Positions 1-64,000 of a stretch of 64,000 nucleotides of DNA are shown here, piece after piece. Source of the DNA: Antarcticibacterium sp. 1MA-6-2 (GTDB lineage Bacteria > Bacteroidota > Bacteroidia > Flavobacteriales > Flavobacteriaceae); NCBI RefSeq assembly GCF_021535135.1, contig NZ_CP091036.1:2666001-2730000 (forward strand), given 5' to 3'. The notes under the pieces were generated by a model, which ran no database searches, was not told where the DNA came from, and was given only the letters and a program-made list of their open reading frames with translations. Numbering within the stretch: the stretch's first letter is position 1; every line of letters begins with the position of its first letter. A program made the translations under genes and the position numbers.

Positions 1-813
1 GTGAATTTCTCTACCGGAAATGAATCAGCGCTTATGCTACAACCACGGAATTTGATCGTAGTTGAGGAGAATGCACAGGTACAGATCATTGAACGCCACC
101 AGAGTCTTACAGATCATCCCGTACTCACAAATTCTGTTACAGAAATTTACGCAGGAAAGAATGCTATTGTTGATTATTATAAAATACAGAATGACAGGGC
201 TTCAGCTTCATTAATAGACAATACTTTTATTGAGCAGAAGGATAACTCTAATTGTTCAATCCACACTTTTTCTTTTGGAGGAAAATTGACGAGAAATAAC
301 CTCAATTTTTATCAGCGTGGAGAACATTGCGATTCTACCTTAAAAGGAATAACCATAATTGAGGATAAGCAACTAGTAGATCATAATACGCTGGTGCATC
401 ATATATTCCCTAACTGCGAAAGCCATCAGGATTACAAAGGTATTTTTGCTGATACTTCTTACTGTGTCTTTAATGGAAAAGTAGTTGTAGATAAGGAAGC
501 ACAGAAAATTAATGCTTTCCAGGCCAACAATAATATATTATTGGATGACAAAGCGACAATCAACTCCAAACCACAATTGGAAATCTTTGCCGATGACGTA
601 AAATGTAGTCACGGCTGTACAATTGGGCAGCTGGATAAGGATTCACTTTTCTACCTCCGCTCAAGAGGGATTCCTCAAAAAGAGGCAAAAGCACTATTGA
701 TGTATGCTTTTGCAAATAATGTTTTGGAAAGTGTTAGAATTCCTGAAATAAAGAAGAGAATAACAAAACAAATAGCTTTAAAATTGGGTGTAAATCTGGG
801 ATTTGACCTTTAA
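1..813 (+). CDS. sufD: SufD, Fe-S cluster assembly scaffold subunit (5' truncated by window edge)
   Basis: This is the C-terminal 270 residues of SufD, the partner of SufB and SufC in the SUF iron-sulfur scaffold complex; the family is usually about 430 residues, so the start lies left of the window. The visible part contains the beta-helix core and the conserved C-terminal block with SRGIPQKEAKALL and a following AFANNVL helix. A conserved VDHNTLVHH / NCESHQDYKG region is present near the middle. It is followed 24 bases later by sufS on the same strand, which supports the SUF assignment. Position 1 is within the gene and is not a real start. Confidence 0.93.
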   Translation: MNFSTGNESALMLQPRNLIVVEENAQVQIIERHQSLTDHPVLTNSVTEIYAGKNAIVDYYKIQNDRASASLIDNTFIEQKDNSNCSIHTFSFGGKLTRNNLNFYQRGEHCDSTLKGITIIEDKQLVDHNTLVHHIFPNCESHQDYKGIFADTSYCVFNGKVVVDKEAQKINAFQANNNILLDDKATINSKPQLEIFADDVKCSHGCTIGQLDKDSLFYLRSRGIPQKEAKALLMYAFANNVLESVRIPEIKKRITKQIALKLGVNLGFDL

Positions 814-837
814 TAAATTAGCAGGAAAAAACGGTGT

Positions 838-2077
838 ATGAGTGTATTGGCCAAACAATCTTCTTTTGATGTAGAAATGATAAGGAAAGACTTTCCTATT
901 CTAAAAAGGGAAGTTAACGGCCATCCTTTGGTCTATTTTGATAATGCCGCTACTTCACAAACGCCTGTACAGGTAATGGATGCTATTGTAGATTACTATT
1001 CTAACTATAATTCTAATATCCACCGGGGAGTTCATTCCCTTTCGCAGGAAGCTACAGACAAATACGAGGAAGCCAGGAAAAAGGTGCAGGCACATTTTAA
1101 CGCTGCTCATTCATACGAGATTATCCTTACATCCGGCACCACACACGGGATTAATCTTGTGGCCAGCGGATTTTCAGCCCTACTGGAAGAAGGAGATGAG
1201 ATAATGGTCTCTGCTTTGGAACATCACTCGAACATTGTTCCGTGGCAAATGCTAACCGAAAAAACAGGAGCTGTTCTCAAAGTTATCCCCATGGATGAAA
1301 GTGGAGAATTAATTCTTTCAGAATTTGAAAAGCTTCTTTCACGAAAAACAAAAGTTGTTTTCATAAACCACGTATCCAACGCACTCGGTACTATTAATCC
1401 TATAGAGGAGATTATTGCCGGGGCACATAAGGTGGGTGCTGCGGTATTGGTTGACGGTGCACAGGCCGCTCCCCATATTAAAGCAGATGTACAGGCTTTA
1501 GATGTAGATTTCTATGTAGCCTCTGCACATAAAATGTGTGGCCCAACGGGAGTTGGGATCCTTTATGGAAAAGAAAAATGGTTAAAAAAACTACCTCCTT
1601 ACCAGGGAGGCGGAGAAATGATAGCCACTGTTACTTTTGAAAAAACCACTTACGCAGATCTACCTCACAAATTCGAAGCAGGAACTCCAAATATTTGTGG
1701 GGGAATAGCCTTTGGTGCAGCACTGGATTACATGAATAATATTGGTTTTGAAACCATTGCCGCTTACGAACAGGAGCTACTGCATTACGCAACTCAAAAG
1801 CTTCTTGAGATCGAGAAAGTTAAGATCTACGGCATTTCCAAAAAGAAAACTGCAGTAATTTCCTTTAACATTGAAGGAATTCACCCTTATGACATAGGAA
1901 CCATTGTCGACAAATTGGGAATAGCAGTTCGCACTTAGCCATCATTGTGCTCAACCCATTATGGATTACTACAAGATCCCGGGAACAGTGAGGGCATCTT
2001 TTTCTTTTTACAACACCAAAGAAGAAATTGATACCTTTATAGATGCGATAAAACGTGCAAAATCAATGTTGGAATAA
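838..2077 (+). CDS. sufS: SufS cysteine desulfurase (frame broken at 1933-1939)
   Basis: PLP-dependent cysteine desulfurase that supplies persulfide sulfur to the SUF scaffold through SufE. The PLP lysine is K232 in SAHKMCGPTG and the persulfide cysteine is expected at about residue 370 in the HHCAQP motif. The frame runs to a TAG at 1936-1938, then HHCAQP and the rest continue one base out of phase to the stop at 2075-2077. At the break the family demands VRT-G-HHCAQP, that is ACCGGC, but the sequence shows ACTTAGC. With that one-base excess removed the protein is 412 residues, normal for SufS. I treat the break as probably artefactual. It sits between sufD and sufE in the operon. Confidence 0.93.
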
Positions 2078-2090
2078 AAATCCTTCAGCT

Positions 2091-2534
2091 ATGAAAAATC
2101 TTCTGGTTCTATTTCTGATTATTTTGGTATCCTGCGGTGAAAAAAAGACAGCAAAGCCGATCCAATGAAACCGCAGACTTAGTCTTGCTGAAGATCCTGA
2201 ACTTTCAGGAAGTTATTTCATAACGCAATTAGGAAACGAAGATGTTTCTTCAGAAGAAATTGATCTCACCTTTGATGAAAAGCGGAAGGAATTGCGCGGA
2301 AACGCAGGATGTAACCCTAGGTTTAGTTCAGGATTTGAAAGAGATGGAAGAAAAATTACCTTCAGTGAACCTGTAAGTACCAGAATGTTTTGCGACGGAA
2401 AAATGGAAAGGGAAAATCAGGTAATGGAAATCCTTCCGAAGATTACTGAAATGAGAAAAAACGAGGATAATGTGATCTTTCTTTCAAACGAGGGAGAGCA
2501 GTTATTAATGGTTCAAAAAAACGGAAATGAGTAA
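2091..2534 (+). CDS. META/HslJ-domain lipoprotein (two frame breaks)
   Basis: Small lipoprotein with a hydrophobic start and a lipobox ending at VSCG, then a META (HslJ-like) domain recognisable by GNAGCN and a later TRMFCDG motif. Two breaks are needed to read it through. One lies in the A-run near 2141-2147, where one A seems missing. The other is at 2177-2183, ACTTAGT where ACCGGT would restore the frame (T-G-L-A-E-D). Reconstructed length is about 147 residues. It overlaps the sufE start by 8 bases and is co-oriented with the suf genes. Its role is unknown; META proteins are often linked to stress or outer-membrane functions in other bacteria. Confidence 0.75.
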
Positions 2535-2952: not shown

Positions 2953-2953
2953 A

Positions 2954-3277
2954 ATGGAACAGGAAATAGATACCCAGGAACTGGGAGAAAAAATAGTAAG
3001 GGTACTAAAAACCATTTATGACCCCGAAATTCCCGTTGATATATATGAATTAGGGCTAATTTATGACGTCATGGTAAATACTGATTATGATGTCAAGATC
3101 CTGATGACGCTTACAACTCCTAACTGTCCGGTTGCTGAAAGCTTACCGCAGGAGGTTGAAGAAAGGGTAAAATCCCTTGATATGGTTAAGGATTGTGAAG
3201 TTGAAATAACTTTTGATCCCCCATGGACTCAGGATCTTATGAGCGAAGAAGCTAAACTGGAACTCGGGATGCTTTAG
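2954..3277 (+). CDS. DUF59 / MIP18-family Fe-S assembly factor (SufT-like)
   Basis: A 107-residue DUF59-family protein with the characteristic YDPEIPVDIYELGLIYD motif near residue 20 and TTPNCPVAESLP around residue 55, which carries the conserved cysteine. Family members (SufT, PaaD, yeast Cia2/human MIP18) act in maturation or delivery of Fe-S clusters. It starts two bases after sufE, so it belongs to the suf operon. It is shorter than SufT proteins that carry extra N-terminal domains, so I leave the symbol blank. Confidence 0.9.
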   Translation: MEQEIDTQELGEKIVRVLKTIYDPEIPVDIYELGLIYDVMVNTDYDVKILMTLTTPNCPVAESLPQEVEERVKSLDMVKDCEVEITFDPPWTQDLMSEEAKLELGML

Positions 3278-10480: not shown

Positions 10481-13313
10481 TTAAAACCTAACATAGATAT
10501 TTGCGTAATAAGTCGCACCTGTGCCATACCAGTACTTGTTTCCAAAAATGGGCTGATCCCGATTCTTATCTTGTTTAAGAGTTCTAAAATTGGCATTTCT
10601 TGCCTGCTCAAAGCCTCCTGTTTTATACACAACGTCAAAGACATTGTTCAGGCTCACGAAAAAACCAAGATAATAGCTGTCAATCCTCCAGGATTTCCCT
10701 CCAATGATGTTGACAACGAAGTAGTCGTCAAATTGCTCCTGTCTTAGTAAATGCCTTGCCTCCTCTTCATTATAATCGACTAAAGGAAGCCCATCTGCAT
10801 CTGTTAAAAAATTAGAAGTGCGGGTTAAAGGACTAATATCACTAAAAGCATGTGAGAAATAATTTCCTGTAGTTCCAAACCACCAGTAATCCGGATCTCT
10901 ATACTCAAATCCTATCTGGGCAGCACGTTGAGGTCCTCCAGCCAGGAAATAATTTTTCAAACTTGATGTACCATAATCCACGGCAGCGTCAAAACTGTCG
11001 GAAGTTAGATATAAATTAGGATCATTGCTGTAGGTATGTTGTCCAATGGCGGCTGCAGATTTTATTTTGATTGTAGATGTTACCTGAAAATCCAATCCCA
11101 GTTCCAATCCAAAATGTCGTCTGTCTATCCCTGTCAAAACCTCCTGCACAAAGGCTGTGGTACTGTTTCTGCCAAGTCCGCTTAAACCATCAGCATAGTA
11201 AAAAGAAATTTCTGTTGCATCTTGAATTTCAGAAAAATATCCGGTGATCCTCGTCCTAAACTGCGGAGTTCTAAAAATATAGCTTGCATCTACTGAGGAA
11301 AGATTTTCACTGTCTAAATTCTGTACTACGCTATTGTTCATTCGGGAATTAGAGAAGCTGTTCCTTAAATTTGGAGCACGGGTATAATAAGCGGAATTAA
11401 AGTTTAAAAGATTTCTGCTAATAATTTTATATGTGCCTCCTAATTTCACTCCATAGTTGCTAAACTTCAGCTTTTCACTTTCCCCTAAAGAATTATTAGG
11501 ATAGCTGCCATTCTGAAATAGACCCACCCTTTGATACTGCGTGTGAGATAACTGACTTAGCTGCATAGAGATCAACTCTTCTGCCTTTATACTGCAACTG
11601 CGAATAGCCTTCAAAAACATCGGCATGGAGTTCAAAATTGTATTTAAATTTTTCTCCTTCAGTAACTACTCTGTTCCTGTTTCGAAGATCACTTTGTGCC
11701 CTGTCTCCAACTGATGTTGTTGCATCTCCTTCAGCAAAAGCATCTATATCAAGATAACCTGCTCCTCCCAATAGATCCTTAATAGCGGCAAAATTATGAC
11801 TAGTGAGTCTGGTAAATTTTACTTTCGAATTAATTTTTAGGGAAGGACTTAATACTGAAGTTAAAATAGAATTAACCGTGATCTGTTGATCGTCATTCCT
11901 GTCTTCGGCAATCACATAAACCGAATTGCCTCCTGTTTCTGAGGAAATAATATTAGCAGTGTATAAACTTTCCCAGTTTACTTGCCCGTCCTTAACAAAA
12001 GTGTTCCGGGCACGGTAAGCAGCTTCAAAATTCTGATTATCCTCAAATCGTAAAAAATAGCTCGGGAGGTTCTGGTAGTAAGAAGGATCTGGGTTTCCAC
12101 CTCCCCCGATAAAACTTTCCTGCCCATCCTGCTGAACTATAAGCCGGGTACCTCCGTAATCAATTCTGCTATTTCCGGTACTCCCAAATTGGTAAGCGAG
12201 GTTTGTATTGAGATCAGTTTTCCCTGAAATCTTCCAAAAATGATTTAGCATAAAAACAGGTTCCTTTATTTCTCTTATTCTTGAATTTCTTATCTCCCCA
12301 TTTTGATATCCCCAGAAGGAATTGTAACGCTGACCCCTAAGATCATAAACTTCTTGTGTATTTGCTGATGATTTTCCTCTGGTGTTGGGGGTATAGAAGG
12401 AGGTAAAGTTTATGCTATGGGAAGGAGAAATCAATTTTTCTACTGCCAGAAATAGCGCATTGGCTGAATATAGAGTTCCCTCAACGTATGCCTCTTCTGC
12501 AAACCTTCTGGATATAGAAACCGAATAAGCCCAACCCCCGGGAGTTTCCCCGGAATTATAGGTCGCCATGACTCTTCCTGTGTAGCTCCTGTTTGCCGCA
12601 GCGTATGAAATTCTTCCTCCATTACTGTATTTAGCCGCTCTCATTACAATATTTGTACTCCCTGCCAAACCACCAAATCCCACTTCTGCAGGAAGGCTTC
12701 CCATATTGAAAATCTGATTTCTTTGTACATCATTTAAGCCTCCCCAATTACTCCACTGAGGTCTGCCGTTGAATAGTTTGTTCATTTCAACTCCATTAAT
12801 ATAAACTTTCCCAAACTCGCTATCCAATCCCCTCGGTCGAAAGAACGTCTGGCTAAAATCAAAAGCAGCAGCATTAAGAAAAACATCCCGGGATGCCTGT
12901 AACAGGCCCGCGACATTATCAACATTTCCTTCTTCTTCACTTAATTGATCATCTCCCAGACTTATAGTACCTAATAACATTTGCTCCCTAAACATATCTC
13001 TTTCAATTGGAATTAAATCAAGGTCCTTTGCTGCTCCCTCTGTAATTGACACTGGTAAACGCAACACCGCATAACGCGGTGCTGAAAAAATAAGAATTGT
13101 ATTTCCTGAAGTAAGTTCCTCTTGAGAAAACTTAAAATTTCCCTGCAAGTCTGTTGTAGTGGATGTAGTAGTATTTTCAATAGCAACAGTAACATTTTCT
13201 ACAGGTTCAAAAGTGGCTGCATCAACAACTTTTCCTCTCAAAAATATTTCTTGTGCAGAAATTTGCGAGTATAGTATTAGCCCCAGTATTAATAGATATT
13301 TGCCCCTACGCAT
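10481..13313 (-). CDS. TonB-dependent receptor with carboxypeptidase-like regulatory domain (frame broken at 11555-11561)
   Basis: Outer-membrane TonB-dependent receptor of about 943 residues once one extra base is removed. Order of features: signal peptide (ending SQISAQE), a carboxypeptidase-D-like beta-sandwich (residues 25-100, GKVVDAATFEPVENVTVAI), a plug domain (residues 130-240) and a long beta-barrel ending with an aromatic residue (YVRF). The frame breaks where the protein needs YAA-G-QLSHTQ, that is GCCGGT on the reverse strand, but the DNA shows GCTAAGT. It lies between the DUF5689 gene and, divergently, a secreted endonuclease-family gene, a set seen together in Flavobacteriia. 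The substrate is unknown. Confidence 0.88.
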
Positions 13314-15656: not shown

Positions 15657-16440
15657 TTATCTTCCAGGGAAATCTGCTTTCCGTTTATTGAGAAAGGCTG
15701 TTGTACCCTCTTTAAAGTCGGCAGTACTAAAGCAATGTCCAAATTCCTCAATTTCTGTTTCAAAACCATTAACTCCGTCCTTATAATTAGCGTTCACAGC
15801 TTTAATCGCAGATCTTATTGCGACAAGGGAATTTTTAGCAATTTTAGTAGCAATGTTTTCAGTAAATTCCAGTAGTTCCTCCTGGGTTGTGACGTGATTC
15901 ACGAGATTGTATTGTAGCGCCTGGCTGGCATCTATCATTCCGGCTGTCATTATCATCTCCATTGCCCTGCCTTTACCTACCAGCTGCGGCAACCGTTGGG
16001 TTCCGCCGTACCCCGGGATTACTCCCAAAGAAACTTCGGGTAATCCCATTTTTGCATTTTCACTTGCTATTCTAAAATGTGCTGCCAGCGCAAGTTCAAG
16101 GCCTCCACCTAAAGCAAAACCGTTAATGGCCGCTATTACCAAGCTTAGAAAATTCTGCAACCAGATCAAATAATTTAGCCTGACCTTTTGCTGCCAATTC
16201 TTTACCTTCTTCTGGAGAGAAATCTGCAAATTCGCTAATGTCAGCTCCTGCAACAAAAGCTTTTTCCCCACTCCCGGTAATTATTATAACTTTTACCTCA
16301 TCATTTAATTCGGCATCATTAAAAGCGTGATGAAGTTCTTTTATAGTTTTGCGATTTAAGGCGTTAAGCTTTGAAGGACGATTAATGGTTATTGTGAGAA
16401 TGCCATTACTATTTTCTTCCAGAATATTCTCAAAATTCAT
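15657..16440 (-). CDS. Enoyl-CoA hydratase/isomerase family protein (frame broken at 16138-16144)
   Basis: Crotonase-fold protein of about 260 residues after correction. Hallmarks: NRPSKLNALN near residue 20, GSGEKAFVAGADISEF with the oxyanion-hole AGAD near residue 65, and INGFALGGGLELALA near residue 105, with the catalytic Glu region at LPEVSLGVIPGYGGTQRLP. Likely reaction is hydration of short-chain enoyl-CoA in fatty-acid or butyrate metabolism. The frame breaks at FSK-P-VIAAING: GCCGGT is expected on the coding strand, but the DNA has GCTTGGT. Start ATG at 16440 is typical for the family. Confidence 0.9.
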
Positions 16441-18549: not shown

Positions 18550-18838
18550 TTAAAGTTTATTGAAAGGATTTTGGTAGGTGTTAAAGACAGAAAAAATAAC
18601 AATTTTATCTTTTTCTATTCTATAAATTATAAGAAAAGGGAATTTTCTGATGACCGCTTCCCTGAAGGAGGAGTCGAGCTTAGCGAAAATATTCAGGATT
18701 TTCTTTTATGTAAATTAGGGTATTTCTGAACTCGGAAACAAAGGTTTTCCCTAGCCCCACTTGCTTTTTTTCATACCACTCTATGGCTTCTTGTACATCT
18801 AGACGGGCTGTAACTCTTATCTCAAGATTAAAACCCAT
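18550..18838 (-). CDS. ParE/RelE-type toxin (frame broken at 18678-18684)
   Basis: Toxin of the RelE/ParE superfamily, about 95 residues when one extra base is removed. It opens MGFNLEIRVTARLDVQEAI and EWYEKKQVGLGKTFV, then NPEYF-R-R-LDSSFREAVIRKFPFLIIY and ends YQNPFNKL. The frame stops at TAA within GCTAAGC, where GCCGGC (R-R-L) restores the phase. Its start overlaps the end of the antitoxin-like gene at 18828 by 11 bases, the usual arrangement for a toxin-antitoxin pair. Likely target is gyrase or the ribosome; the sequence does not decide which. Confidence 0.78.
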
Positions 18839-23000: not shown

Positions 23001-23728
23001 TTATTCTGGCTTTTCCAAAGCGAATAAAATACATTGAAGTATGTGCTCCACAAAAAGCGGTTCTCCGTAAGATTGTATAGTGTGGCCGCCACTTAGGTAT
23101 AGATGGTTTTTCCCCCTCCTTCAAGTTCTTTATACCACGCTATAGGATGGTCATCACCATTCGTGCCTCCTTTATAGGTAGACTCATCCAGCTTCATTAA
23201 AACCTGCATTTCAGGATTGATATTTTTGTAGTTATACCATTCATCATGCCTTCTCCAGGTGTGTGGCAGGTGTTTTACAGTAGGATGCTCCGACATTACC
23301 ACATTTACCTCTGCCCATTGATTTTCGGGATGGCCATTAAAATAGGCCCCAACCAGCTGTCCATACCATTCCCAATCATACTCAGTATCAGCGGCAGCGT
23401 GTATTCCAAAGAAATTACCTCCTTCATTTATGTAATTCTTAAACGCCTCTTGCTGTTTTTCATCCAATACATTCCCCGTAGTATTTAGAAAAATAACCAG
23501 GTCAAAAGTCTCCAGTTCCTCTTCATTGAAAGTGTCGGCTTTATCTGTAACAACAACGGCGAATCCATTGTCTTCTCCAAGATCCTGTATAGCCTGGTAG
23601 CCTGCAGGAATGGATTCGTGCCAGAAACCAACTGTTTTATGAAAAACGAGAACTTGTTGATCCTGAGCCTGTATTGGGAGAATTGCAAAAAGAAAGCAAC
23701 ACATCAGGAAATTTAGAATTGTCTTCAT
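23001..23728 (-). CDS. ThuA-domain secreted protein (frame broken at 23091-23098)
   Basis: A trehalose-utilisation (ThuA) type glutamine-amidotransferase-like fold with a signal peptide ending IQAQ. Motifs: VLVFHKTVGFWHESIPAG near residue 27, FLNTTGNVL, GIHAAADTEYDWEWYGQLVGAYFNGHP, and HDEWYNYKN. The frame stops after GGGKTIYT; the typical tail GGGHT...YGEPLFVEHILQCILFAL resumes two bases out of phase. ACCGGT at this point restores it. The corrected length is about 241 residues. ThuA proteins are thought to act on sugars; why one sits between hemH and the regulator is unclear. Confidence 0.83.
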
Positions 23729-24834: not shown

Positions 24835-26087
24835 ATGGAAAATCATATTTCAAGAGGAAAACATTTTTACAGCATTGGCCTAAGCTATAAGAAAGCCGAT
24901 GCAGTTACACGTGGACATTTCTCGCTTACAGAAGAAGCAAAGACAAATGTACTGGAACAGGCAAAAGCTGAAGGTATTGAAGGTTTGCTGGTAACGTCTA
25001 CCTGTAATCGTACCGAATTATACGGATTTGCACAACACCCATTTCAGCTTATAAAATTACTTTGTGAGCACACCCATGGCACTGTAGAAGAATTTGAAAA
25101 GGTAGCCTACGTATATAAGAATAAAGAAGCTATATCTCATCTGTTCCGCGTTGGTACGGGTTTAGATAGCCAGATCCTTGGAGATTTTGAAATAATTAGC
25201 CAATTAAAGAACGGCTTTCAAAAATCAAAAGCTCACGATATCGCTAATCCTTTTCTTGAAAGACTTGTAAATGCAGTGATCCAGGCAAGTAAACGTATAA
25301 AGAACGAGACTCAAATTTCTTCAGGAGCAACCTCAGTAAGTTTTGCTTCTGTTCAGTATATATTAAAGGAAGTAGAAAATGTTTCAGCAAAGAACATTTT
25401 GCTTTTTGGTACTAGTAAGATTGGCCGCAATACCTGTGAAAATCTTGTGAAGCACACAAAAAACACTCACATTACCCTTATAAACAGGACCAAGGATAAA
25501 GCTGAAAAGATTGCTTAGTAAGTTTAATTTAAGAGTAAAGGATTATACCGATTTGCAGGAAGAAATCCGACAGGCCGATATTCTCATCGTTGCCACTAAG
25601 CGCTCAAAATCCCACAATTACAAAAGAATTGATCTACGCAAAAAAAGATCTTCTAATTCTGGATCTTTCTATACCCAAGAACGTTGCAGATGATGTAACT
25701 GAGCTTAAAAATGTTAAGCTATTGCATTTAGATCATCTTGCCCAAATGACAGATGAAACTCTTGAACGCAGGAAGCAATCCATCCCACAAGCACAGGAGA
25801 TCATTGCAGAAGTAGAAGGTGAATTTACCAAGTGGCTTGAAACCAGAAAATTTGCTCCTACTATAAAAGCTTTAAAAAAGAAGCTAAAGACGATGAAGGA
25901 TGCCGAGCTGGATTTTCAAAGAAAGAAAATCGCGAACTTTAATGATGAGCAGGCAGAGATCGTGAGCAACAGGATCATTCAAAAAATCATGAATCATTTT
26001 GCCAACCACCTTAAAGATGATTCTAATACAACAGATGAAAGCCTGGAACTTATCCAGAAGGTTTTTCAGCTGGAAGAAACTCATTAA
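24835..26087 (+). CDS. hemA: Glutamyl-tRNA reductase (two frame breaks)
   Basis: Catalyses the first committed step of C5-pathway haem synthesis, reducing Glu-tRNA to glutamate-1-semialdehyde. The catalytic Cys is C57 in VTSTCNRTELYG; RVGTGLDSQILGDFEI and the Rossmann motif LLFGTSKIGRNTCENL follow. Two frame breaks occur: 25513-25519 (GCTTAGT, where IA-G-KFNL needs GCCGGT) and 25595-25601 (ACTAAGC, where VAT-G-AQNPT needs ACCGGC). Removing one base at each gives 416 residues, normal for the family. The stop overlaps the hemC start by one base. Confidence 0.94.
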
Positions 26088-27701: not shown

Positions 27702-27702
27702 T

Positions 27703-37751: not shown

Positions 37752-38863
37752 ATGAAAAAAATTCTTCTTCTCCTCTCTATGGGAGTGGCCATTTCCTGCA
37801 ATCAGGCATCTGTTGACAAAAAGCCAATTGGTGAAACTCCAAAAGAACCGATCTCAGATCAGGTACAGGGGGACAACTTTGGAATTGTTATTCACGGTGG
37901 TGCTTAAGTACCATTCTAAAAGAAAATATGACCGACTCACTTGAGCTGGCTTATAAAGAGGTGCTGGAGCAGGCGATAAGAACAGGTCACGAAATTTTGG
38001 CAAACGGGGGTACAGCTATAGAAGCTGTTCAAAGAACTATTAATATCATGGAAGATTCGCCGCTCTTCAATGCAGGAAAGGGTGCAGTTTTTACTAATGA
38101 AGAAACTAACGAACTCGATGCAGCGATAATGGATGGAGAAACTCTAAATGCGGGTGCCATAGCAGGAGTCACCACGGTAAAAAATCCTATTAATCTCGCT
38201 TATGAAGTAATGGAAAATTCCCCTCACGTTTTACTTTCGGGTAAGGGAGCAGAAAAATTTGCCGGGGAAAGAGGCTTAGAAATTGTTGAACCATCATACT
38301 TCTATGATGAAAGCAGATTTCAATCCCTGCAACGAATAAAAGAATCAGAAGAAAGTGAGTCAGAAATTGATACTACAACAACTGCATTTTATGATCCTTT
38401 AATTAAAGATTCGAAATTTGGAACTGTGGGTGCGGTAGCTCTGGACAAAAATGGCAATGTTGCTGCAGGTACTTCAACAGGTGGAATGACAAATAAAAAA
38501 TGGAACCGTATAGGCGATGTTCCAATCATAGGAGCGGGAACTTATGCCAATAACGCCACATGTGCAGTTTCTGCTACGGGGTGGGGTGAATACTTTATTC
38601 GCGGGGTCGTGGCGTATGATATTTCAGCTATGATGGAATACCGAAAGATGAGCCTGGAAAAAGCAGCAGCCAGGGTGATTCAGGAAAAACTAACCCAACT
38701 GGGTGGAGAAGGAGGTATAATTGCCATTGACGGAAAAGGGAATATTGCGATGGAATTTAATTCCGCAGGAATGTATCGGGCGGCGATGAACAGAAAAGGA
38801 GAGTTAACTTTAGGAATATATAAGGAAAATGAAGGTGTAGAGGAAGTTCCGGCAGCAGAATAA
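37752..38863 (+). CDS. Isoaspartyl peptidase / plant-type L-asparaginase lipoprotein (frame broken at 37902-37909)
   Basis: Ntn-hydrolase of the IaaA / plant asparaginase family, about 369 residues after correction, exported as a lipoprotein (lipobox VAISC near residue 16). The conserved opening IHGG-A-G-TILKENM is cut by the break: GCCGGT is expected, GCTTAAGT is seen (two bases extra). The autoprocessing nucleophile Thr lies in KFGTVGAVALDKNGNVAAGTSTGG, and GAGTYANNATCAVSATGWGE is the substrate-binding block. Cleaves isoaspartyl dipeptides and possibly asparagine. The natural terminator now lies 1.4 kb away because of an IS3 insertion. Confidence 0.9.
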
Positions 38864-40387: not shown

Positions 40388-40883
40388 ATGACGGAAGGGC
40401 TGGAAAAGCAGAAAATGGAACTAATTGAACAGTTGGGGGTTCAGCTGGAAAACGATAACCTGGCACCTTTGGCTGCGAGAGTGATGGCGACCCTTATTTT
40501 AAATGGGAAACAGGGAGTAACTTTTGAGAAGCTTGTAAACGAGCTTAATGCCAGTAAAAGCACTATCTCAACTCACCTGGAGCAACTGCAGGTGACGAAT
40601 AAAATTAAGTATTTCACCAAACCTAAGCGAAAGAAAGAGATATTTTATAATTAATCCCGATCTAATGCTGAATGTCATTGATGAAATGATTGCAAAATGG
40701 GAAACCGAAACTAAGATCCACAAGAAAATTCTCAGTTATAAAAAAAAGCACAACGATGTATGTCAACGAAGGGAGGAATTCAAGTTTGATCTTGAATTTC
40801 AGGAAGATTTCCTCACCTTTTTAAAAGAAGCGACAACAGCAATTAAAAAATTAAAGACTAAGATCAACCAAAGAAACAGCTAA
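40388..40883 (+). CDS. GbsR/MarR-type transcriptional regulator (frame broken near 40625)
   Basis: Winged-helix regulator of about 164 residues. The N-terminal HTH (residues 30-75: ARVMATLILNGKQGVTFEKLV and ASKSTISTHLEQLQ) is followed by a wing YFTKP. There the frame is lost; it resumes as RYFIINPDLMLNVIDEM and a C-terminal dimerisation helix. The family wing usually reads TKPGERKRYF. The scar is CCTAAGC; the fitting original (P-G codons) would not be RCCGGY, so this is an exception in the scar set. It sits directly before an RND operon and probably represses it. ATG 40388 is preferred to TTG 40367, which overlaps the promoter. Confidence 0.82.
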
Positions 40884-40891: not shown

Positions 40892-42020
40892 ATGATTAAT
40901 AAGATGAGAACATTAAGTTATGTAGGTTTTATAATAAGTTCATTCCTTTTCCTGTCTTGCCAGGAAGGGAATCAACAACAACAAGCTCAGGGTCCTGCGC
41001 CCTATCCGGTAATTGAAGTTCCTGTAAGAACAGTGACTAAGCTACACCAGTTACCCTGTCACTCTGGAAGGAACAGTAAGTAGTGCTGTTCGTGCAAAAA
41101 CATCAGGTTATATTACAGATGTTTTAGTAGATGAGGGAGAAAAAGTACGCAAAGGACAAACTCTTTTTAAGCTGGAAACTCAATCTCTTTCTCAGGAAGT
41201 CGGTGCAGCGCGTGCAAACGTAAACGCCGCACAGGTAGAGGTTGATAAATTAAAACCTTTAGTTGAAAAGGGTATTATTAGCTCTGTTCAGCTTCAAACT
41301 GCAGAGGCACGTCTCGCTCAGGCCAAGGCTGGTTTAAGTGGTATCAATGCTAACATTGGGTATGCAACAATTAAAAGTCCTGTAGATGGTTACGTGGGGG
41401 CCATAAATTTTAGAGAAGGAGCCCTTATTAGCCCTGCGGATCCTTCCCCCTTGACCACAGTTTCAGATATAGATGAAGTTTATGCTTTCTTTTCTTTAAA
41501 TGAACGGGATTACCTCAATTTCATTCAGAATGCTGAAGGGGAAAATATACAGGAGAAGATTGAAAACTTCCCTCCTGTTCAACTTGAGCTTGTGAACGGG
41601 GAAAATTATTCAGAAGAAGGAGAAATTCAAACCGTCACGGGTATTGTTGACCGCTCCACGGGTACAGTAGGTTTTCGCGCAATGTTCCCGAACCCAAACG
41701 GCATCCTGGCAAGTGGAAACAGCGGAACCATAAAAATTCCACAGACGTTTGAGAATGTTCCTGTAGTGCCGGAAGCATCCACATTTGAACAGCAGGGGAA
41801 AGTACACGTTTATGTGGTACAGGGAGATACTGTGGCAATTTCCAGGGTTATTACTGTAAGGGACAGGATTGAGAATATTATCGTAGTAGCTTCAGGAATA
41901 GAAGAAGGAGAAAAGATCGTCGCCAAAGGAGTTGGTCTCGTAAGAAGTGGAATGGCCATTCAACCTCAACCAGCTTCTTTTGACAGTATCGCTAACACTT
42001 TGCAACCAGTATTTAAATAA
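40892..42020 (+). CDS. RND efflux periplasmic adaptor lipoprotein, AcrA-type (frame broken at 41036-41042)
   Basis: Membrane-fusion protein linking the RND pump with the outer-membrane channel. About 375 residues after correction, with a lipobox ending LSC near residue 22. Order: VRTVT-G-YTSYPVTLEGTVSSAVRAKTSGYI (first barrel-sandwich half), VDEGEKVRKGQTLFKLE, an alpha-hairpin (QEVGAARANVNAAQVEVDKL), second lipoyl half (ATIKSPVDGYVG) and the beta-barrel and membrane-proximal domains. The break falls where ACCGGC is expected and ACTAAGC is seen. First gene of the efflux operon after the regulator. Confidence 0.9.
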
Positions 42021-42028: not shown

Positions 42029-45000
42029 ATGCTAAAGAAATTTATTGAGAGACCTGTATTATCCACAGTTGTTTCTATAGTTATATTAATCCTGGGAATA
42101 TTAGGAATTACAACTTTACCTGTTACTCAATATCCCGATATTGCTCCTCCTACTGTACAGGTTAGAGCGAATTTCCCGGGAGCAAATGCACAAACGGTAC
42201 TGGAAAGTGTGATTATTCCTATTGAGGAACAAATCAATGGGGTGGAAGGAATGACTTATATCACTTCTACTGCAAGTAACAATGGAAGTGCCAGTATTCA
42301 AGTATTTTTTGACCAGGGAATAGATCCTGATATTGCTGCAGTGAATGTGCAGAACAGGGTGTCCCGGGCAACTCCCTTACTTCCGCGGGAAGTTACACAG
42401 TCTGGAGTAACAACTCAAAAGCAGCAAACCAGTGCGTTAATGTTCCTTACCATGGTTTCTGAAAATGAAGATTATGATGCGACTTTTATTCAGAATTATC
42501 TAAACATCAATGTACTTCCAGAACTAAAAAGGATCAACGGGGTTGGAGATGTATCTGTCTTTGGTGCAAAGACCTACGCCATGAGAATCTGGTTACAACC
42601 AGAAAAACTTGCTGCCTATAATCTAATTCCTTCTGATGTTACTGCGGCAATTAATGAGCAGAGTCTTGAGGCGGCGGCTGGTTCTTTAGGACAAAATAAT
42701 GCTGAAGCTTTTGAATATGTAATAAGATACGGCGGTCGCTATAATACTGAAGAAGAATATCAAAATATCATTATTAAGGCTCTGGATAACGGCCAATTCC
42801 TGAGACTAAAGGATGTAGCGAAGGTTGAGTTAGATGCCGAAGGTTATAACGTGGTTTCTTTTACTAATGGTCTTCCAGGGGTAAGTATGGCAGTATATCA
42901 AACTCCCGGATCTAACGCCCAGGAAATAATTGAAGAAATTCACGAAAAACTGGCAGAACTGGAGCCAAATTTTCCTGCAGGTTTATCTACCTTAATCAAC
43001 TTTGACAGTAATGAGTTTTTAAATGCGTCTATTGACAAGGTGGTGATGACACTTTTAGAAGCATTTCTCCTGGTGTTTCTCGTGGTTTTTATATTCCTTC
43101 AGGACTTTAAGTCTACTTTAATTCCTGCTATTGCTGTACGGTTTCTATCATTGGTACCTTCTTCTTCCTTAATCTATTTGGGTATTCCATTAACCTGCTT
43201 ACTTTATTTGCACTTGTGCTGGCAATTGGGATTGTGGTAGACGACGCTATAGTTGTGGTTGAGGCTGTGCACGCCAAACTTGAAGAAGGTGCAAAAAATG
43301 CAAAAGAAGCGACTATTACTGCGATGAATGAAATAGCAGGAGCTATTATCTCTATTACCCTGGTTATGGGTGCAGTATTCATTCCCGTAACTTTTATCCA
43401 GGGTCCAACAGGTGTATTCTACGAACAGTTTGGAGTCACTTTAATAGTTGCAATTGCAATTTCGGCAGTAAACGCCTTAACCTTAAGCCCTGCTCTCGCT
43501 GCCCTGTTCCTCAAACCTCACGATGAAAAATCGGAGAAAAAAGGATTCTTGAAGAGGTTCTTTGCAGGATTTAACCGGGGCTTTGAAGCCACAACCAAAA
43601 AATATGTGGGTTCACTTGGTTTTCTATACTTAAGCATAAATGGGTTACAGGTTTTATACTTCTTGCCGCTATAGTAGGTATTTTTTGGGCATCGTCTACA
43701 ACACCTACAGGTTTTGTACCCGATGAAGATCGCGGAATGGTAATGGTAAATGTTTCCTTACCTGCCGGGGCTTCTCTTGACAGGACCGTAGAAATTACTT
43801 CAGAATTAAGTGAGAAAGCCAGAAACATTCCCGGTGTTGAAGTAGCTACAATGGTTAATGGCTTCAGCTTAATAGGTGGTGCTAGTAGTAACTATGGCCT
43901 TGGTTTTATAAAACTGGCTCCATGGGATGAACGTACAGATGACTCTACATCTATTGATGCCATTATCGGGCAACTTTTCGGGATAGGAGCTGGTATTACC
44001 GATGCCGATATCCTGTTCTTCCAGCCCCCGAGCGTTCCGGGATTTGGGGTCTCTTCAGGATTTGAAATGCAAATTTTGGACAAATCTGGAGGCTCTTTTA
44101 ACGACCTTGATGCCGCCGCACAGAATTACCTGATGGAATTAATGGCACGCCCAGAGATCTTGTATGCATCCACCTCTTTTAATACTAATTATCCACAGTA
44201 TGAAATTGATCTTAATGTACCTAAGGCAAAGGAGGCAGGAGTTTCTATAAGCAGTATCTTCTCAACTTTACAAGGATATATTGGGAGTGTATATGCTGCC
44301 GATTTCGCGAGATTTGGGAAACAGTACCGGGTATTCGTACAGGCAATGCCGGAAGATCGGGCCACTGTAGGGGATCTTAATGCACTCTTTGTACGAAACG
44401 CACAGGGTGAAATGGCTCCTATTACAGAATTTGTTGAGTTAAAAAGAGTTTATGGTCCACAGTCTGTAACCCGATTTAACCTGTTTAATGCTGCGGCAGT
44501 TAATGGCGCTCCGGCTCCTGGATATTCTTCAGGGGATGCTATTGCGGCCGTACAGGAGGTAGGTACAGGCTCCTTACCTGCAAACTTTGACATTGATTTC
44601 TCAGGTCTTACAAGAGAAGAAATTTCCGCAGGAAACCAAACTACTTATATTTTCTTTTTAAGTATCCTCTTTGTTTACTTCATCCTGGCAGCACAATATG
44701 AGAGTTATTTACTTCCATTTACAGTACTCTTCTCTCTTCCTGTAGGAGTTATGGGTGCCTATGTCACCACTTCTTTAACAGGATTGCAAAACAATATTTA
44801 TTTCCAGATTGCATTAATTATGCTACTGGGGCTTCTGGCTAAAAATGCCATTCTTATTGTGGAATTTGCTATTCAACGAAGACGTGCGGGAGTTCCAATT
44901 GTAGAGGCTGCTTTCGATGCAGCAAAAGTGAGATTAAGGCCTATTTTAATGACCTCCTTTGCTTTTATTGTTGGTCTATTACCCCTGGTTTTCGCATCGG

Positions 45001-49613: not shown

Positions 49614-50706
49614 GTGAAAGAAGGGCATCTTTTAAGGAAAATTATTCATATTGATATGGATGCTTTTTACGCATCGGTGGAGCAACTGGATAATCCTGAA
49701 CTGCAGGGGAAACCTATTGCGGTGGGTGGTAGCGAAGAAAGAGGAGTGGTAGCAGCGGCAAGTTATGAGGCACGAAAATTCGGCGTTAAAAGTGCTATGA
49801 GCAGCATCATCGCCAAACGCAATTGCCCTCACCTTATTTTTGTAAGGCCCAGATTTGATCGATATAAAGAAATCTCCACCCGCATAAGGGAAATATTTTA
49901 TGAGTACACAGATTTGGTGGAGCCTCTTTCCCTGGATGAAGCTTACCTGGATGTCACCGAAAACAAAAAAGGACACCCCAGCGCGACACTAATAGCACGT
50001 GAAATTCGCCAAATTATTAAGGAAAGAACTGGTCTTAATGCCTCTGCTTAGTATCTCAATCAACAAATTTATAGCAAAAGTTGCCAGTGATATTAATAAA
50101 CCTAACGGGCAAAAAACAGTAAATCCCGAAGAGGTCGAGGAATTCCTCGAAAAATTACAGATAAGGAAGTTCTACGGGGTGGGAAAGGTCACTGCCGAAA
50201 AAATGTACCAGCTGGGCATATTTAAGGGAGTCGATCTAAAGAAAAAAACTGAAGAATTTCTTACGGAACAATTTGGCAAAAGTGGAAGTTACTACTACAA
50301 AGTGGTGAGGGGAATTCATAACAGCGAAGTTAAACCTAACCGAATAAGAAAGTCTCTTGGTGCCGAAAGAACTTTTGATGAAAATATATCTTCAGAAATT
50401 TTTATGCTCGAGAGATTGAAAAATATTTCTGAAGAGATAGAAAGAAGATTACAAAGAGGTGGGGTTGCAGGCAAAACTATAACCCTTAAGATTAAGTACA
50501 GTGACTTTAGCCTGCATACCCGAAGCAAAACTCTCCCTTTCTACATTTCCAGTAAAGATCTGATTTTAGAAAACGCCAAGGAGTTACTCTATCAGGAAAG
50601 GATGAAAGAATCGGTGAGATTGCTGGGGATTTCGCTCTCTAATCTCAATACAGAGAAACCGGAAAAAAAACTGGAAATAGTAGTTCAACTAAAGTTCGAT
50701 TTCTAG
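49614..50706 (+). CDS. dinB: DNA polymerase IV (frame broken at 50046-50052)
   Basis: Y-family translesion polymerase, about 363 residues after correction. Catalytic motifs are [15 protein letters not shown] (Asp, near residue 14) and [13 protein letters not shown] (Asp-Glu, near residue 105); the [19 protein letters not shown] motif, the helix-hairpin-helix [16 protein letters not shown] and the little-finger domain follow. The break is at NASA-G-ISINKF: GCCGGT expected, GCTTAGT observed. GTG 49614 is the first start in frame; an internal ATG at residue 15 would remove the first catalytic Asp strand. Followed by a terminator. Confidence 0.93.
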
Positions 50707-56411: not shown

Positions 56412-57352
56412 ATGAGTAAATTATTAATAGTAGGTACTGTCGCCTTTGATGCAATTGAAACTCCTTTTGGAAAAACAGATAAGATCTTAGGAGGTGCAGC
56501 CACTTATATTGGACTTTCTTCTGCTCAATTTGAGATAGATAATGCTATAGTTTCAGTGGTTGGAGAGGATTTTCCGCAGGAACATCTTGACCTTTTAACT
56601 GGAAACGGTATTAATATTGACGGAATAGAAATAGTAAAAGGGGGAAAAACCTTCTTCTGGAGTGGCAAATATCACAACGACCTTAATTCACGGGACACTT
56701 TAGAGACTCAACTCAATGTTTTGGCAGATTTTAATCCTGTTGTACCAAAGGAATATCAGGATTCAGAGTTCGTAATGCTCGGCAACCTTCACCCACTGGT
56801 TCAAATAAGTGTACTTGAGCAGGTAAAATCTCCCAGGCTTGTAGTACTGGACACCATGAACTTTTGGATGGATAACGCTCTGGAAGATCTTCTAAAAGTT
56901 ATTGCTAAAGTTGATGTTATCACGATTAATGATGAAGAGGCACGCCAGTTAACAGGAGAGCACTCTTTAGTAAAGGCTGCAAGAAAGATTGCAGAAATGG
57001 GACCCAAATATGTAGTAATCAAAAAAGGGGAAAATGGAGCTTTACTGTTCCACGAAGGAAAAATATTCTTTGCACCCGCATTACCATTAGAAGAAGTGTT
57101 TGATCCAACAGGTGCAGGTGATACCTTTGTTTAGGTGGCTTTACAGGATATCTTGCCCAAACAGGAGATATTTCATTTGAAAATATGAAGAATGCCGTAA
57201 TTTATGGCTCCACACTTGCCTCTTTTTCCGTAGAAAAATTTGGAACTGAAAGAATGGAAATGCTTTCCCGGGAGGAGATACAGTCCCGTATGAAAGAATT
57301 TAAGAATTTAACACAATTCAATATAGAATTAACCCCAAACAAGGCCCTGTAA
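56412..57352 (+). CDS. PfkB-family sugar/nucleoside kinase (frame broken at 57129-57136)
   Basis: Ribokinase-type carbohydrate kinase, about 312 residues after correction. N-terminal LLIVGTVAFDAIETPFGK and GGAATYIGLSSAQF, and the C-terminal anion-hole motif VFDPTGAGDTF-A-GGF with the catalytic Asp. The break falls exactly in that motif: GCCGGT (Ala-Gly) is expected, GTTTAGGT is present (two bases extra). The tail continues FTGYLAQTGDISFENMKNAV to a stop at 57350. Substrate may be a sugar or nucleoside. A terminator follows. Confidence 0.9.
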
Positions 57353-57409: not shown

Positions 57410-59308
57410 ATGAGTGACGCTTTAAAACATGAATGTGGAATAGCATTAATCCGGCTACTTAAACCACTGGAGTTCTACAAAGAAAAATATGGAACTGCTT
57501 TTTACGGGGTAAATAAAATGTACCTCCTAATGGAGAAACAGCACAACCGCGGACAGGATGGTGCTTAGTTTTGCCAGTATTAAACTTAATACGCAACCCG
57601 GTGAGAGATATATAAGCCGACTTAGATCTAACGCCGCACAGCCTATTCAGGATATTTTTAATCAAATAAATGAGCGAATTAATGAAGAGATAGCTCAAAA
57701 TCCTGAATATGCAGATGATGTCGCTCTTCAAAAAAAGCATGTGCCTTATATAGGTGAATTGTTTTTAGGGCATGTACGTTATGGCACCTTTGGAAAAAAC
57801 AGCATTGAAAGTGTACACCCTTTTCTTCGCCAAAATAATTGGATGCACAGGAACCTCATTGTGGCTGGTAATTTTAACATGACAAATGTCTTCCAGCTTT
57901 TCAATAATCTTGTAGAACTGGGGCAACATCCTAAAGAGCGGGCAGATACTGTTACCGTAATGGAAAAGATAGGCCATTTCCTGGATGATGAAGTTAGAAA
58001 GCTCTATAAAAAATTAAAGAAGGAAGGTTATAATAAAGTAAGTGCCTCTCCACAAATAGCTGAACGTTTAAACGTTGCAAAAATCCTCAGGAAATCTGCA
58101 AAAAACTGGGATGGAGGTTATGCTATGGCAGGGCTTCTTGGACATGGGGATTCTTTTGTTCTCAGGGATCCGGCAGGAATCCGCCCGGCGTATTATTACC
58201 AGGATGATGAAGTAGTAGTGGTAGCTTCTGAAAGGCGGTAATACAAACCGTTTTCAATGTAGATTTTAAGGATGTAAAAGAACTGGATCCCGGACATGCG
58301 ATCATAACCAAAAAGAACGGAGAAGTAAGAATTAAACAGATTTTAGAACCCCTTGAGCGTAAGGCCTGTTCTTTCGAAAGAATTTATTTCTCCCGTGGTA
58401 GTGATTCGGAAATTTATAAGGAGCGCAAAATGCTTGGCCGTTTATTAATGCCGGAAGTATTAAAGTCAATAGGACACGATACCATAAACACTGTTTTCTC
58501 CTATATTCCCAATACTGCGGAAACTTCTTTCTACGGAATGGTGGAAGCTGCACAGGACGAATTGAGTAAACAAAAGAATGAAGCAATTCTTGCTGAGAAA
58601 GATTCTCTTACAGATGAACGCCTGAAGCAGATATTGGATTACAGGTTAAGAACTGAAAAGATCGCCATCAAAGATGTAAAATTGAGGACCTTTATAACTG
58701 AAGATAGCAGCCGCGACGATCTTGTAGCTCACGTATATGATGTCACATACGGTGTCGTAAGACCCGAAGACAATCTCGTTATCATTGATGACAGTATAGT
58801 GAGAGGTACTACTTTAAAAAAGAGTATTATAAAAATGCTGGACCGTTTGAACCCTAAGCAGCTTGTAGTGGTATCCTCGGCTCCTCAAATAAGATATCCC
58901 GATTGTTATGGAATTGATATGGCGAGGCTTGAAGATCTTGTAGCTTTTAGGGCGGCTTTAGATCTATTAAAAGACACTAACCAGTACGACATAGTAGATG
59001 AGGTATATAGAAAGTGTAAACTCCAGGTTGAACTGGAAGATGCAGAGGTGCAGAATTTTGTGAAGGAGATCTATACTCCCTTCAACGATCAGCAAATCTC
59101 TGATAAAATTGCCGAGTTGTTAAGTGAGCCAGAGGTGAAAACAAAAGTGAAGATTATCTATCAAACGGTAGAGAATTTACATATGGCCTGTCCAAAAAAT
59201 TTGGGGGACTGGTATTTTACAGGAGATTATCCAACTTTTGGTGGTAACAGGGTGGTAAACCGCGCCTTCATTAACTTTTATGAAGGTAGTAAAGATCGTG
59301 CATACTAG
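57410..59308 (+). CDS. purF: Amidophosphoribosyltransferase (two frame breaks)
   Basis: First committed step of purine synthesis: PRPP plus glutamine to phosphoribosylamine. The long Bacteroidota form has about 632 residues. The N-terminal nucleophile is Cys near residue 9 in HECGIALIRL; the glutaminase domain has EKQHNRGQDG-A-G-FASIK and GHVRYGTFG, and the PRPP loop is LVIIDDSIVRGTTLKK near residue 465. Breaks: 57563-57569 (GCTTAGT where GCCGGT is required) and 58235-58239 (GCGGT where ASERPVIQT needs GCCGGT, one C lost). The two shifts cancel in length. Confidence 0.95.
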
Positions 59309-60181: not shown

Positions 60182-60218
60182 ATTTCTTAATTTTTTAGTT
60201 ATAATATATTGATTGTTT

Positions 60219-60343: not shown

Positions 60344-63300
60344 TTGGAAATCAAAAATTCCTATAAAATTTACAATGCTTCCGCAGGATCTGGTAAAACT
60401 TATACTCTTGTAAAAGATTACCTTATTTTATTATTGCAAAGCAATCAACCAGACGCTTATCGTAACATCCTCGCCATCACTTTTACAAATAAAGCCGTGG
60501 CAGAAATGAAAACCCGGGTAATTTCGGCACTTCATTCCCTGTCCCTGGAAGACGTGCCCGGGGATCTAAAAAATCTAATGGCCGATCTTGTTTTAGAAAC
60601 GGGTTATCCTGAGGAAAAAGTAAAAGAAAAATCCCGAATGGTCCTAAAGAGCATTCTGCACAATTATGCCTCTTTTGACATTTCAACTATTGACCGCTTT
60701 ACACATAAGGTTATTAGGACTTTTGCAAAGGATCTGGGACTTCCTGTGAATTTTGAAGTGGAGATGAATACCCTACAAATCCTCGAGGAGGCAGTGGACA
60801 GGTTGATTAATCGCGCAGGAGATGACAACCAACTTACAAAGATCCTGGTGAATTTTACTTTATCCAAGACCGATGATGACAAGAGCTGGGATATTGCAAA
60901 AGATCTTTTTAACTTTTCAAAGATCCTTTTACACGAGAACCACATCCCCTACGTTTCTCACCTAAAAAATAAAAGCCTTCAGGATTATAAGGATTTTTCT
61001 GAAAAAATTAAAACTGCCATTGCAGCTTCTGAAGAAGGAATAGCGAAGATTTCAGAAGATTTCTTCAGAATTGTAGAATCTGAAGCTCTTAAAAAGTCCA
61101 GTTTTAACAGAGGTTATGTTTATGAGTATTTCAGCAAGCTGGATCAAAAAAACTACAAAGTGACTTTTGGTTTAAAATGGCAGGAAACTTTGGAAGAGGA
61201 TAATTTATATTCTGCAAAGGTGCCGCAGATCGAAAAAGAGGCTCTGGATAGAAATCAGCAGGAAATTGCATTATTGTTTAAAACTTCAAAAGCTGCAGTA
61301 TTAAGAAGAGAATTTCTTAAGGAACTTAACGCTAATCTCATACCACTTTCACTACTGGGCGAAATAGCAAACGAAATGCAGGAAATTAAAAAAGAGCGGG
61401 CGCTCATCCTGATTTCAGATTTTAACCCGACCATTGCCGCTGAAGTAAAGGATCAGCTTAGCTCCGTTTATTTACGAAAGACTGGGAGAACGCTATCGCA
61501 ATTATTTTATTGATGAATTTCAGGATACTTCGGCGATGCAATGGAATAATATTATTCCTTTAATTGATCACGCCCTTTCTTCGGAAACCCAAAGAGACCA
61601 AACAGCAGGCCTTACTCTTGTAGGAGACGCTAAACAATCCATCTACAGGTTTAGAGGAGGAAAAGCAGAACAATTTATAGATCTGTATAACGGCCAATCT
61701 CCCTTCAGCATAAAAGAAAAAGTTACGAACCTGCCCTACAATTACAGGAGTGCAAAGGAAATTGTAGAATTTAATAATTCATTTTTTAGTTATATTTCAT
61801 CAAAGTTTAATAAACCTTCCTATCGCGAACTTTTTGAAAATAGCGGGCAACAGCCAAAAAAAGAAACTACAGGATATATTAATATTTCATTTCTGGAAAC
61901 TGAAAATGCAGAGCACGAGATGGAACTGCATCCTGCAAAGGTTTACGAGATCATTCAAAACCTGGAGGAACAGGGAACAAACAAGAGTGACATTTGTGTT
62001 CTTACCAGGACCAGAAAACAAAGTTTTGCTGTAGCTAATTATCTAAATGACCAGGGAATTTCTATTGTATCATCAGAGTCGTTGTTGGTTGCAAATTCGC
62101 CTCAAGTACTTTTTATTAATGACCTCCTGGAATTCTCTATTAATCCTGATGATCGAAACCTACGATGGAGTATCCTGAATTATTTAGTAAAAGAACTTAA
62201 AGTTAGTGAACCGCACCAATTAATTGTAGCCACCCTGGATCAAAAGGAGAAGTACTTTTTTGAATGGTTGAATAAGTTTGGTATTACCTTTAAACTACAG
62301 GAGATAAGAGAGCTGTCTCTCTATGAAGCTGCTGAATATATTATACGAAGTTTTTCCCTAATTAAAAGTTCTGATGCTTATCTCCAGGCTTACCTGGATT
62401 TTATATTTGAAAAATCAACAAAAGCTGCCATAAGTGTAACTACCTTTTTGGAATACTGGGATCAATACAGTGAAAAACTTAGCATTGTTGCACCTAAAAC
62501 AAATGATGCAGTACAAATAATGACTATTCACACCTCAAAGGGTCTTGAGTTTCCCGTAGTGATCTATCCTTTTGCAAATTCCAGGATAAAGGATATAAGT
62601 AAAGAATATTTGTGGTTGCCACTGCCAGAAGATCTTGCAGATATTCCTGTAAGTTACTTTAAGGCATCTAAAAAAATGTTGGATTGGGGGAATTATGCTG
62701 CTGAAGCCTATCAAAACCTCCTTGATCAAACCGAATTTGATGCGATTAACATTTTATATGTAGCCCTCACGAGAGCGTCTCAACAGTTATACATCCTCTC
62801 CTGTTATGAATTTAAGAATGGGCAGGAGTGTGAAGACAAGGTTTCAGGATTGCTAATTGGTTATTTAAAGTCACAAAATAAGTGGAGCGGGGAAAAAACA
62901 TATGAAATTGGTGAAAACCTTCCTGTTAAGGGAAGAGGTTTCTTCGGTAAAGCCTTACATCCGCAGGAATTTTACTCCTCTCCTACCCAAAATCAAATTG
63001 TGAAAATTGTAACTCTCTCCGGAAAGTTATGGGGGTCTACACAGGAAGAAGCCATCAATACCGTATTCTTGTACACGATATTCTTTCTGAAATTACTACT
63101 GCTGAAGATATTCCCGAAGCGATAAAAAAATACAGCAGAAAAAGTAAATTGGATATAACTGATAAACAGGAACTGGAACTGGAAATCTCCCGCATAATCT
63201 CGCATCCGGATCTTGCCGATTACTTTTCTGCTGATGCCGTGGTATACAGGGAACGGGATATAATTAGTCCTGAAGGCGAAATCTTAAGACCGGATAGGCT

Positions 63301-63472
63301 AAATTTTATAAACGACAGGGTTACCATCATTGATTATAAAACCGGAAAATTACAACCCGGTCATAAGCAACAAATGGAGGTCTATGCATCTATTCTTGAA
63401 AAGATGGATTTTATAGTAGAAAATAAAATACTCATTTATATTAATGACGATGTGAATATCATATTTGTTTAA
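60344..63472 (+). CDS. AddA-like UvrD/Rep helicase with C-terminal nuclease domain (two frame breaks)
   Basis: Superfamily-1 helicase-nuclease for double-strand-break repair, about 1042 residues after correction. Walker A is NASAGSGKTYTL near residue 12; ILAITFTNKAVAEMK is motif Ia, FIDEFQDTS motif II, LVGDAKQSIYRFRGG motif III, MTIHTSKGLEFPVVIYP motif V and ILYVALTRASQQLYIL motif VI. The C-terminal PD-(D/E)xK nuclease shows RPDRLNFI and VTIIDYKTGKLQPGHKQQMEVY. Breaks: 61456-61462 (GCTTAGC where KDQPAPFIYERLG needs GCCGGC) and 63060-63064 (ACCGT where EEAINTGILVHDIL needs ACCGGT). TTG 60344 is the apparent start. An AddB partner would be expected nearby but is not in this window. Confidence 0.9.
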
Positions 63473-63502
63473 AAGATACCTAATTTTGTAAAAAACCTAA
63501 TC

Positions 63503-64000
63503 ATGTACGGAGAAATAAAAGAACACTTACAAAAGGAAATTGAACAAATAAAAGAAAATGGTCTCTATAAAAAGGAGCGAATAATAACTTCTCCACAGGG
63601 AGCAGTTATAAAAATTTCCACGGGACAGGAAGTAATTAACTTTTGCGCCAATAATTATTTGGGACTGTCTTCACATCCGGAAGTTGTACAGGCAGCCAAA
63701 GACACTATGGACACGCACGGTTTTGGGATGTCCAGCGTAAGGTTCATTTGTGGTACCCAGGACATACATAAGGATCTGGAGAAAAAAATAGCAGAATTTT
63801 ACGGGACTGAAGACACCATTCTTTATGCCGCAGCTTTTGATGCAAATGGAGGTGTTTTTGAACCCCTGTTTTCTGCAGAAGACGCAATAATTTCTGATTC
63901 CCTCAATCACGCTTCAATTATAGATGGGGTAAGGCTTTGTAAAGCGGCCAGGTATCGTTTCGAAAACGGAAACATGGAAGACCTCGAGAATCAACTCAAA
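63503..64000 (+). CDS. kbl: Glycine C-acetyltransferase, 2-amino-3-ketobutyrate CoA ligase (3' truncated by window edge)
   Basis: PLP-dependent alpha-oxoamine synthase that cleaves 2-amino-3-ketobutyrate with CoA to glycine and acetyl-CoA in threonine degradation. The first 166 residues are visible: YGEIKEHLQKEIEQIKENGLYKKERIITSPQGA, INFCANNYLGLSSHPEV, HGFGMSSVRFICGTQDIH and SDSLNHASIIDGVRL with the PLP-stacking His. The full family length is about 397, so the PLP-lysine part lies to the right. ATG 63503 gives the typical N-terminus. Confidence 0.93.
   Translation, partial: MYGEIKEHLQKEIEQIKENGLYKKERIITSPQGAVIKISTGQEVINFCANNYLGLSSHPEVVQAAKDTMDTHGFGMSSVRFICGTQDIHKDLEKKIAEFYGTEDTILYAAAFDANGGVFEPLFSAEDAIISDSLNHASIIDGVRLCKAARYRFENGNMEDLENQLK

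Follow-up and report, generated by a model that had tools for sequence, protein, structure and literature searches.

Near-total loss of RCCGGY from a bacterial genome assembly is best read as an artefact pointing to a restriction-modification specificity

Why should 64,000 nucleotides of a bacterial chromosome that hold 157 CCGG tetramers contain not one RCCGGY? The question is raised by positions 2,666,001-2,730,000 (hereafter the window, meaning the whole stretch analysed) of a single-contig genome of 4,383,004 bases (4.38 Mb). By exact counting, the tetramers divide into 53 RCCGGR, 59 YCCGGR, 45 YCCGGY and 0 RCCGGY, with about 40 of the last class expected (53 x 45 / 59). The first-pass annotation, made by eye, had reported every RCCGGY site missing, with about 50 RCCGGR and 45 YCCGGY present; the claim is correct for the window, but not for the genome, where 62 sites remain. 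These represent about 2% of the roughly 3,400 expected (358 per 464 kb, scaled up), so that about 98% of the sites are lost, and the count over the whole assembly that the annotation had proposed does not reveal many intact ones.

Hexamer by hexamer, the genome contains one GCCGGC as against 199 copies of the reversed control, 14 + 5 ACCGGC on the two strands (19) as against 549 + 489, and 42 ACCGGT as against 904. The ratio of GCCGGC to its control, 1/199 here, lies between 1.5 and 3.5 in 15 of 15 relatives from the genus. A 464-kb sample of the genome, which includes the window and many stretches picked for holding residual sites, has 26 RCCGGY versus 358 expected from the relatives or 378 from the genome's own flank frequencies; in six stretches picked regardless of residual sites, RCCGGY makes up 3 of 336 CCGG. 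Both the window counts and the 26 seen versus 358 expected in the sample confine the loss to RCCGGY among the four CCGG classes. As to the position of the strain, relatives of hemE (URO-D) indicate Gillisia, of the Flavobacteriaceae: the best named matches to its protein include G. marina, G. mitskevichiae and G. limnaea, at 88-90% identity.

The residual sites have features of their own. A repetitive region (L151:9079-11505; G000:C1:2401079-2403505) carries four copies of one ACCGGC context with identical flanks, all of them intact, and survival of residual RCCGGY therefore seems to depend on context. Five of the 62 sites are clustered in L144:5518-16817 (G000:C1:875518-886817), near genes that resemble metal transporters, as named by reading their translations. 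The three bases that flank residual RCCGGY (loci L139-L158) are richer in A or T, with a share of 0.74, compared with 0.64 at RCCGGY of the relatives.

Frame breaks are the second peculiarity of the window. Alignment of relatives' proteins to its DNA, covering 56.5 kb, gives 24 frame-switch clusters, four of which rest on one alignment and two of which (11541 and 11580) may be a single break; the identical test applied to four relatives (G003, G005, G002 and G011) gives 2, 0, 1 and 1 breaks, respectively, in 51.5-55.3 kb each. With five signature strings and a limit of 20 bp, 11 of the 24 breaks lie near a signature, versus 1.7% of random places. When the set is extended by strings added after inspection of the breaks and of the rRNA genes (CTTAGG, CCTAAG, CTAAGG, TTTAGG and others) and the limit is set at 25 bp, 16 of 24 lie near an R-(TA-rich)-Y signature such as RCTTAGY, versus 2.8% of random places, the breaks at 11541 and 11580 sharing one signature within the 16. 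Five more have only a weak signature (RCGGY or RCCGY) nearby, a situation met at 15% of places by chance, and three have neither. In the best-scoring alignment for each of the 16 signature breaks all three codon phases are occupied, by 10, 1 and 5 breaks.

Along the window, ACTTAGC at 1933..1939 stands at the end of the Aminotran_5 (sufS-like) frame (2 alignments), and a second ACTTAGC, at 11555..11561, at a break supported by 5 alignments. The ThuA frame breaks at ACTTAGGT (23091..23098; 2 alignments). Two breaks, each with 10 alignments, interrupt hemA, one at GCTTAGT (25513..25519) in GlutR_N and one at ACTAAGC (25595..25601), beyond which GlutR_dimer follows; ACTTAAGC (26292..26299) accompanies a break at 26302 ahead of the hemC frame (3 alignments, antisense strand only). 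Further breaks are found at ACTAAGT in Aldedh (35671..35677; 11 alignments), at GCTTAAGT in Asparaginase_2 (37902..37909; 8 alignments), at ACCTAAGC (40621..40628; 6 alignments), a place absent from the first-pass list, at another ACTTAAGC in ACR_tran (43628..43635), at GCTTAGT in dinB (IMS; 50046..50052; 6 alignments) and at GTTTAGGT in PfkB (57129..57136), while GCTTAGC (61456..61462; 2 alignments) lies 25 bp from the break in the UvrD helicase, that is, at the limit used. Weak signatures include ACGGT in ACR_tran (43138..43142), GCGGT (58235..58239) and ACCGT (63060..63064; 1 alignment), each at a frame break.

The first-pass annotation had spoken of about 25 breaks and listed 24 coordinates. 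Of the latter, 20 fall within 35 bp of a break found here, but four offer the signature with no independent frame break: ACTTAGT at 2177..2183, GCTTAGC at 18678..18684, GCTTAGT at 26194..26200 and ACTAAGC at 41036..41042. Of the 24 coordinates, 18 have a signature of the TA type and three only RCGGY or RCCGY, and neither kind is seen at 16138, 47259 and 48055. The annotation had also maintained that the conserved protein needs codons spelling RCCGGY at nearly all breaks, which is demonstrable from the relatives' RCCGGY at three places only: near the ECH_1 break, where the window reads ACCAAGC (16138..16144) and is one base longer than three relatives with RCCGGY; at GCTAGGT (33729..33735), where six relatives have it; and at GCTTAGT in the purF-like gene (57563..57569), where two do. 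Pfam bears out several of the gene names (Aminotran_5, ECH_1, ThuA, GlutR, Porphobil_deam, Aldedh, Asparaginase_2, ACR_tran, PAP2, IMS, PfkB and UvrD), and in part the TonB receptor, called at 11555, where only CarbopepD_reg is detected in the piece, and purF, of which the GATase domain is recognized.

The three rRNA operons of the genome serve as an internal control. At about position 93 of the 16S gene, ACCGGC is present in all six aligned relatives, and the genome's own copies read ACTGAC, ACTAAGC and ACTAAGC (two readings); at about 1145, where two of the six relatives have GCCGGT, the three copies give three readings, GCAGGT, GCTAAGGT and GCTTAGGT. The only other differences among the 16S copies are at 1010-1011. 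The copies do vary, with 28 difference blocks between whole operons, 25 of them outside 16S, but length changes in conserved 16S at just two RCCGGY places are hard to credit as real DNA. Two 23S positions were left uncounted, the two closest relatives having RCCGGY at neither: 1532, with GCCGGC in four of six relatives and GCTGGC in all own copies, and 259, with ACCGGT in one relative within a diverged stretch. The disagreement between rRNA copies is the clearest evidence in the analysis; misreading of a modified base explains it, and real sequence hardly does.

What stands in place of the lost sites can be tallied only in part, and the outcome depends on the expectation used. Compared with the relatives, the excess of CTAAG, CCTAAG, CTAG and CCTAG in the 464-kb sample amounts to about 132 sites, with about 332 missing. 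When the expectation is taken from the genome's own flanks, CCTAAG alone shows a clear surplus: CTAAG was seen 145 times versus 140 expected, and CTAG and CCTAG fall below expectation. R-CCTAAG-Y was seen 45 times, with 11 expected from the relatives or 22 from the own flanks. The remaining missing sites may be one-base losses, changes of the RCTGAY type or, in part, real loss. A clean error table could not be drawn from the relatives' DNA, since the species are too distant (HSPs about 65-78% identical among the matches listed). At 24 places where the relatives agreed on RCCGGY, the genome has one extra base at three, CCGG with a changed flank at four and substitutions at 17. Of the control places (39 YR, 26 YY and 33 RR), CCGG is kept in 12, 8 and 6, respectively, and the substitutions at the RCCGGY places resemble those of these control classes.

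That a single degenerate palindrome has all but vanished, that breaks occur in three codon phases and that the rRNA copies disagree all support the modified-base misreading already proposed in the first pass. We consider it very probable that the cause is a misreading of modified RCCGGY, best understood as nanopore-type errors at sites methylated by a C5 system resembling NmeDI. The DNA of the strain most likely holds RCCGGY at about normal density, with a modified cytosine at nearly every site. A C5 methyltransferase would mark the motif and shield the chromosome from its partner restriction enzyme; the mark would shift the pore signal, and a basecaller untrained on it would misread the centre, calling the middle CG as TA, TTA, TAA or TTAA or dropping one base. 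In this way about 98% of the sites could have disappeared from the consensus, with spurious frame breaks arising in their place. The platform was most likely nanopore with no short-read polishing, to judge from the type of error alone. Since it is around the inner CG that the letters are misread, the inner cytosine may be the likelier marked base, a weak step because pore errors can sit displaced from the base that carries the mark.

The search for restriction-modification genes suggested in the first pass yields a candidate elsewhere in the genome. A C5-cytosine methyltransferase (G000:C1:3944957-3946141; profile match to PF00145, 164 bits), the only PF00145 match in the genome, has as its neighbour a type II restriction enzyme (G000:C1:3943900-3944979; REase_II in PADLOC) and stands beside a Vsr gene (G000:C1:3946515-3946934), all within an apparent mobile island. 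The GGPPCPDFS and FENVKG columns of the methyltransferase are invariant in 15 aligned sequences, and we take them to be the catalytic PC and ENV motifs of C5 methyltransferases. All 120 listed homologues of the restriction enzyme carry PF27126. Its structural model is of middling quality, and matches fall mainly on the C-terminal half, to cleavage domains of the nicking and FokI type. We infer that the mark is 5-methylcytosine laid at RCCGGY by this methyltransferase.

The closest known counterpart is NmeDI of Neisseria meningitidis, described in passages of PMC7973814, PMC4081073 and PMC6789123 as cutting 12/7 RCCGGY 7/12 and as comprising an m5C methyltransferase, a restriction enzyme and Vsr, the last credited with repair of deaminated m5C. 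The likeness is one of make-up: the same three components are found in both, and one of the 120 listed methyltransferase homologues bears the (transferred) name NmeDIP. The modelled C-terminal fold might suit an enzyme that, like NmeDI, cuts away from its site. Host and setting are different. VchM of Vibrio cholerae, likened by description, is an m5C methyltransferase given for RCCGGY in part of PMC4654547 and thus shares the motif and the chemistry proposed here; it is, however, an orphan, whereas the present candidate has a restriction partner. Cfr10I/Bse634I, NgoMIV, SgrAI and BsaWI, restriction enzymes of the CCGG family, are also to be named among the closest known systems. Nanopore errors at strain-specific modified motifs, other than RCCGGY, are reported in sections of PMC10687267, PMC6591954, PMC11610573 and PMC12506013; the present case shares the dependence on such a motif and differs in the motif itself, in the loss of about 98% of sites and in the many length changes. 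No paper listed in the literature searches appeared, by its listing, to describe an assembly that had lost RCCGGY.

Several points weigh against the preferred explanation: the incomplete tally of replacement strings, the extra base at only three of the 24 places where relatives agree on RCCGGY, the five breaks with a weak signature only and the three with none, and the normal ACCGGT of two other genomes with the enzyme (G183 and G716, below). The errors reported for meningococcal m5C are, according to the nanopore literature cited above (PMC10687267, PMC6591954, PMC11610573, PMC12506013), mostly C-to-T and G-to-A, that is, substitutions, whereas many of those in the present genome change the length. 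RCCGGY might be modified and misread through a different enzyme or kind of mark (methylation of adenine or of cytosine at N4, phosphorothioate or hypermodification), the more so as the specificity of the C5 enzyme is deduced from the error motif. This is unlikely, though it survives better than the other alternatives, given the NmeDI-like make-up with Vsr and a profile search of two methyltransferase families, which gave a single match to PF00145 and none to PF01555. In a narrower form, it is suggested by the failure of about 98% of sites, many of them with bases added or removed in a manner unlike meningococcal m5C errors, that the mark is bulkier than, or different from, plain 5-methylcytosine; we hold this to be rather improbable.

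It is far less credible that RCCGGY was truly lost under restriction pressure and that the broken frames are real pseudogenes. A restriction system is indeed present, and the signatures account for only part of the missing sites, but the breaks hit conserved genes, among them hemA, dinB and aldehyde dehydrogenase, and real avoidance would have to produce the length changes in 16S rRNA and the copies that differ at the same place. In two further genomes with the restriction enzyme (G183 and G716), ACCGGT occurs 492 and 607 times, with controls of 1088 and 568, values within the range of eight non-carriers, which argues against restriction avoidance and says nothing on the specificity of the enzyme. 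A programmed +1 frameshift, or recoding, at sites of the CTTAG type, brought to mind by some frames that end at a TAG within the signature (e.g., at 1938 and 25518), can be set aside almost entirely, as the signatures keep no fixed relation to the frame and occur also in 16S rRNA, where translation has no role.

If misreading at a methylated RCCGGY is the correct explanation, scaling up from the window puts the false frame breaks of the genome at well over a thousand, besides errors even in 16S rRNA, and claims of gene loss based on this assembly would be mistaken. The combined absence of a motif and presence of frame breaks can indicate the specificity of a methyltransferase from an assembly alone, with no raw reads, and the same combination could be looked for in other genomes built only from long reads.

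Phages too encode close relatives of the methyltransferase (noted at L190:2089-3210), two Vibrio phages at 57% and 55% identity and an Akkermansia phage at 47%; these enzymes possibly protect the phages' DNA from restriction at RCCGGY. A different C5 methyltransferase, 39% identical, is present in another genome of the genus (L192; G013:C171:11072-12130). Within the window, the hemE frame (27688-28806) runs about 27 codons beyond the part common to most relatives and overlaps the next frame; its over-long end is perhaps another misread.
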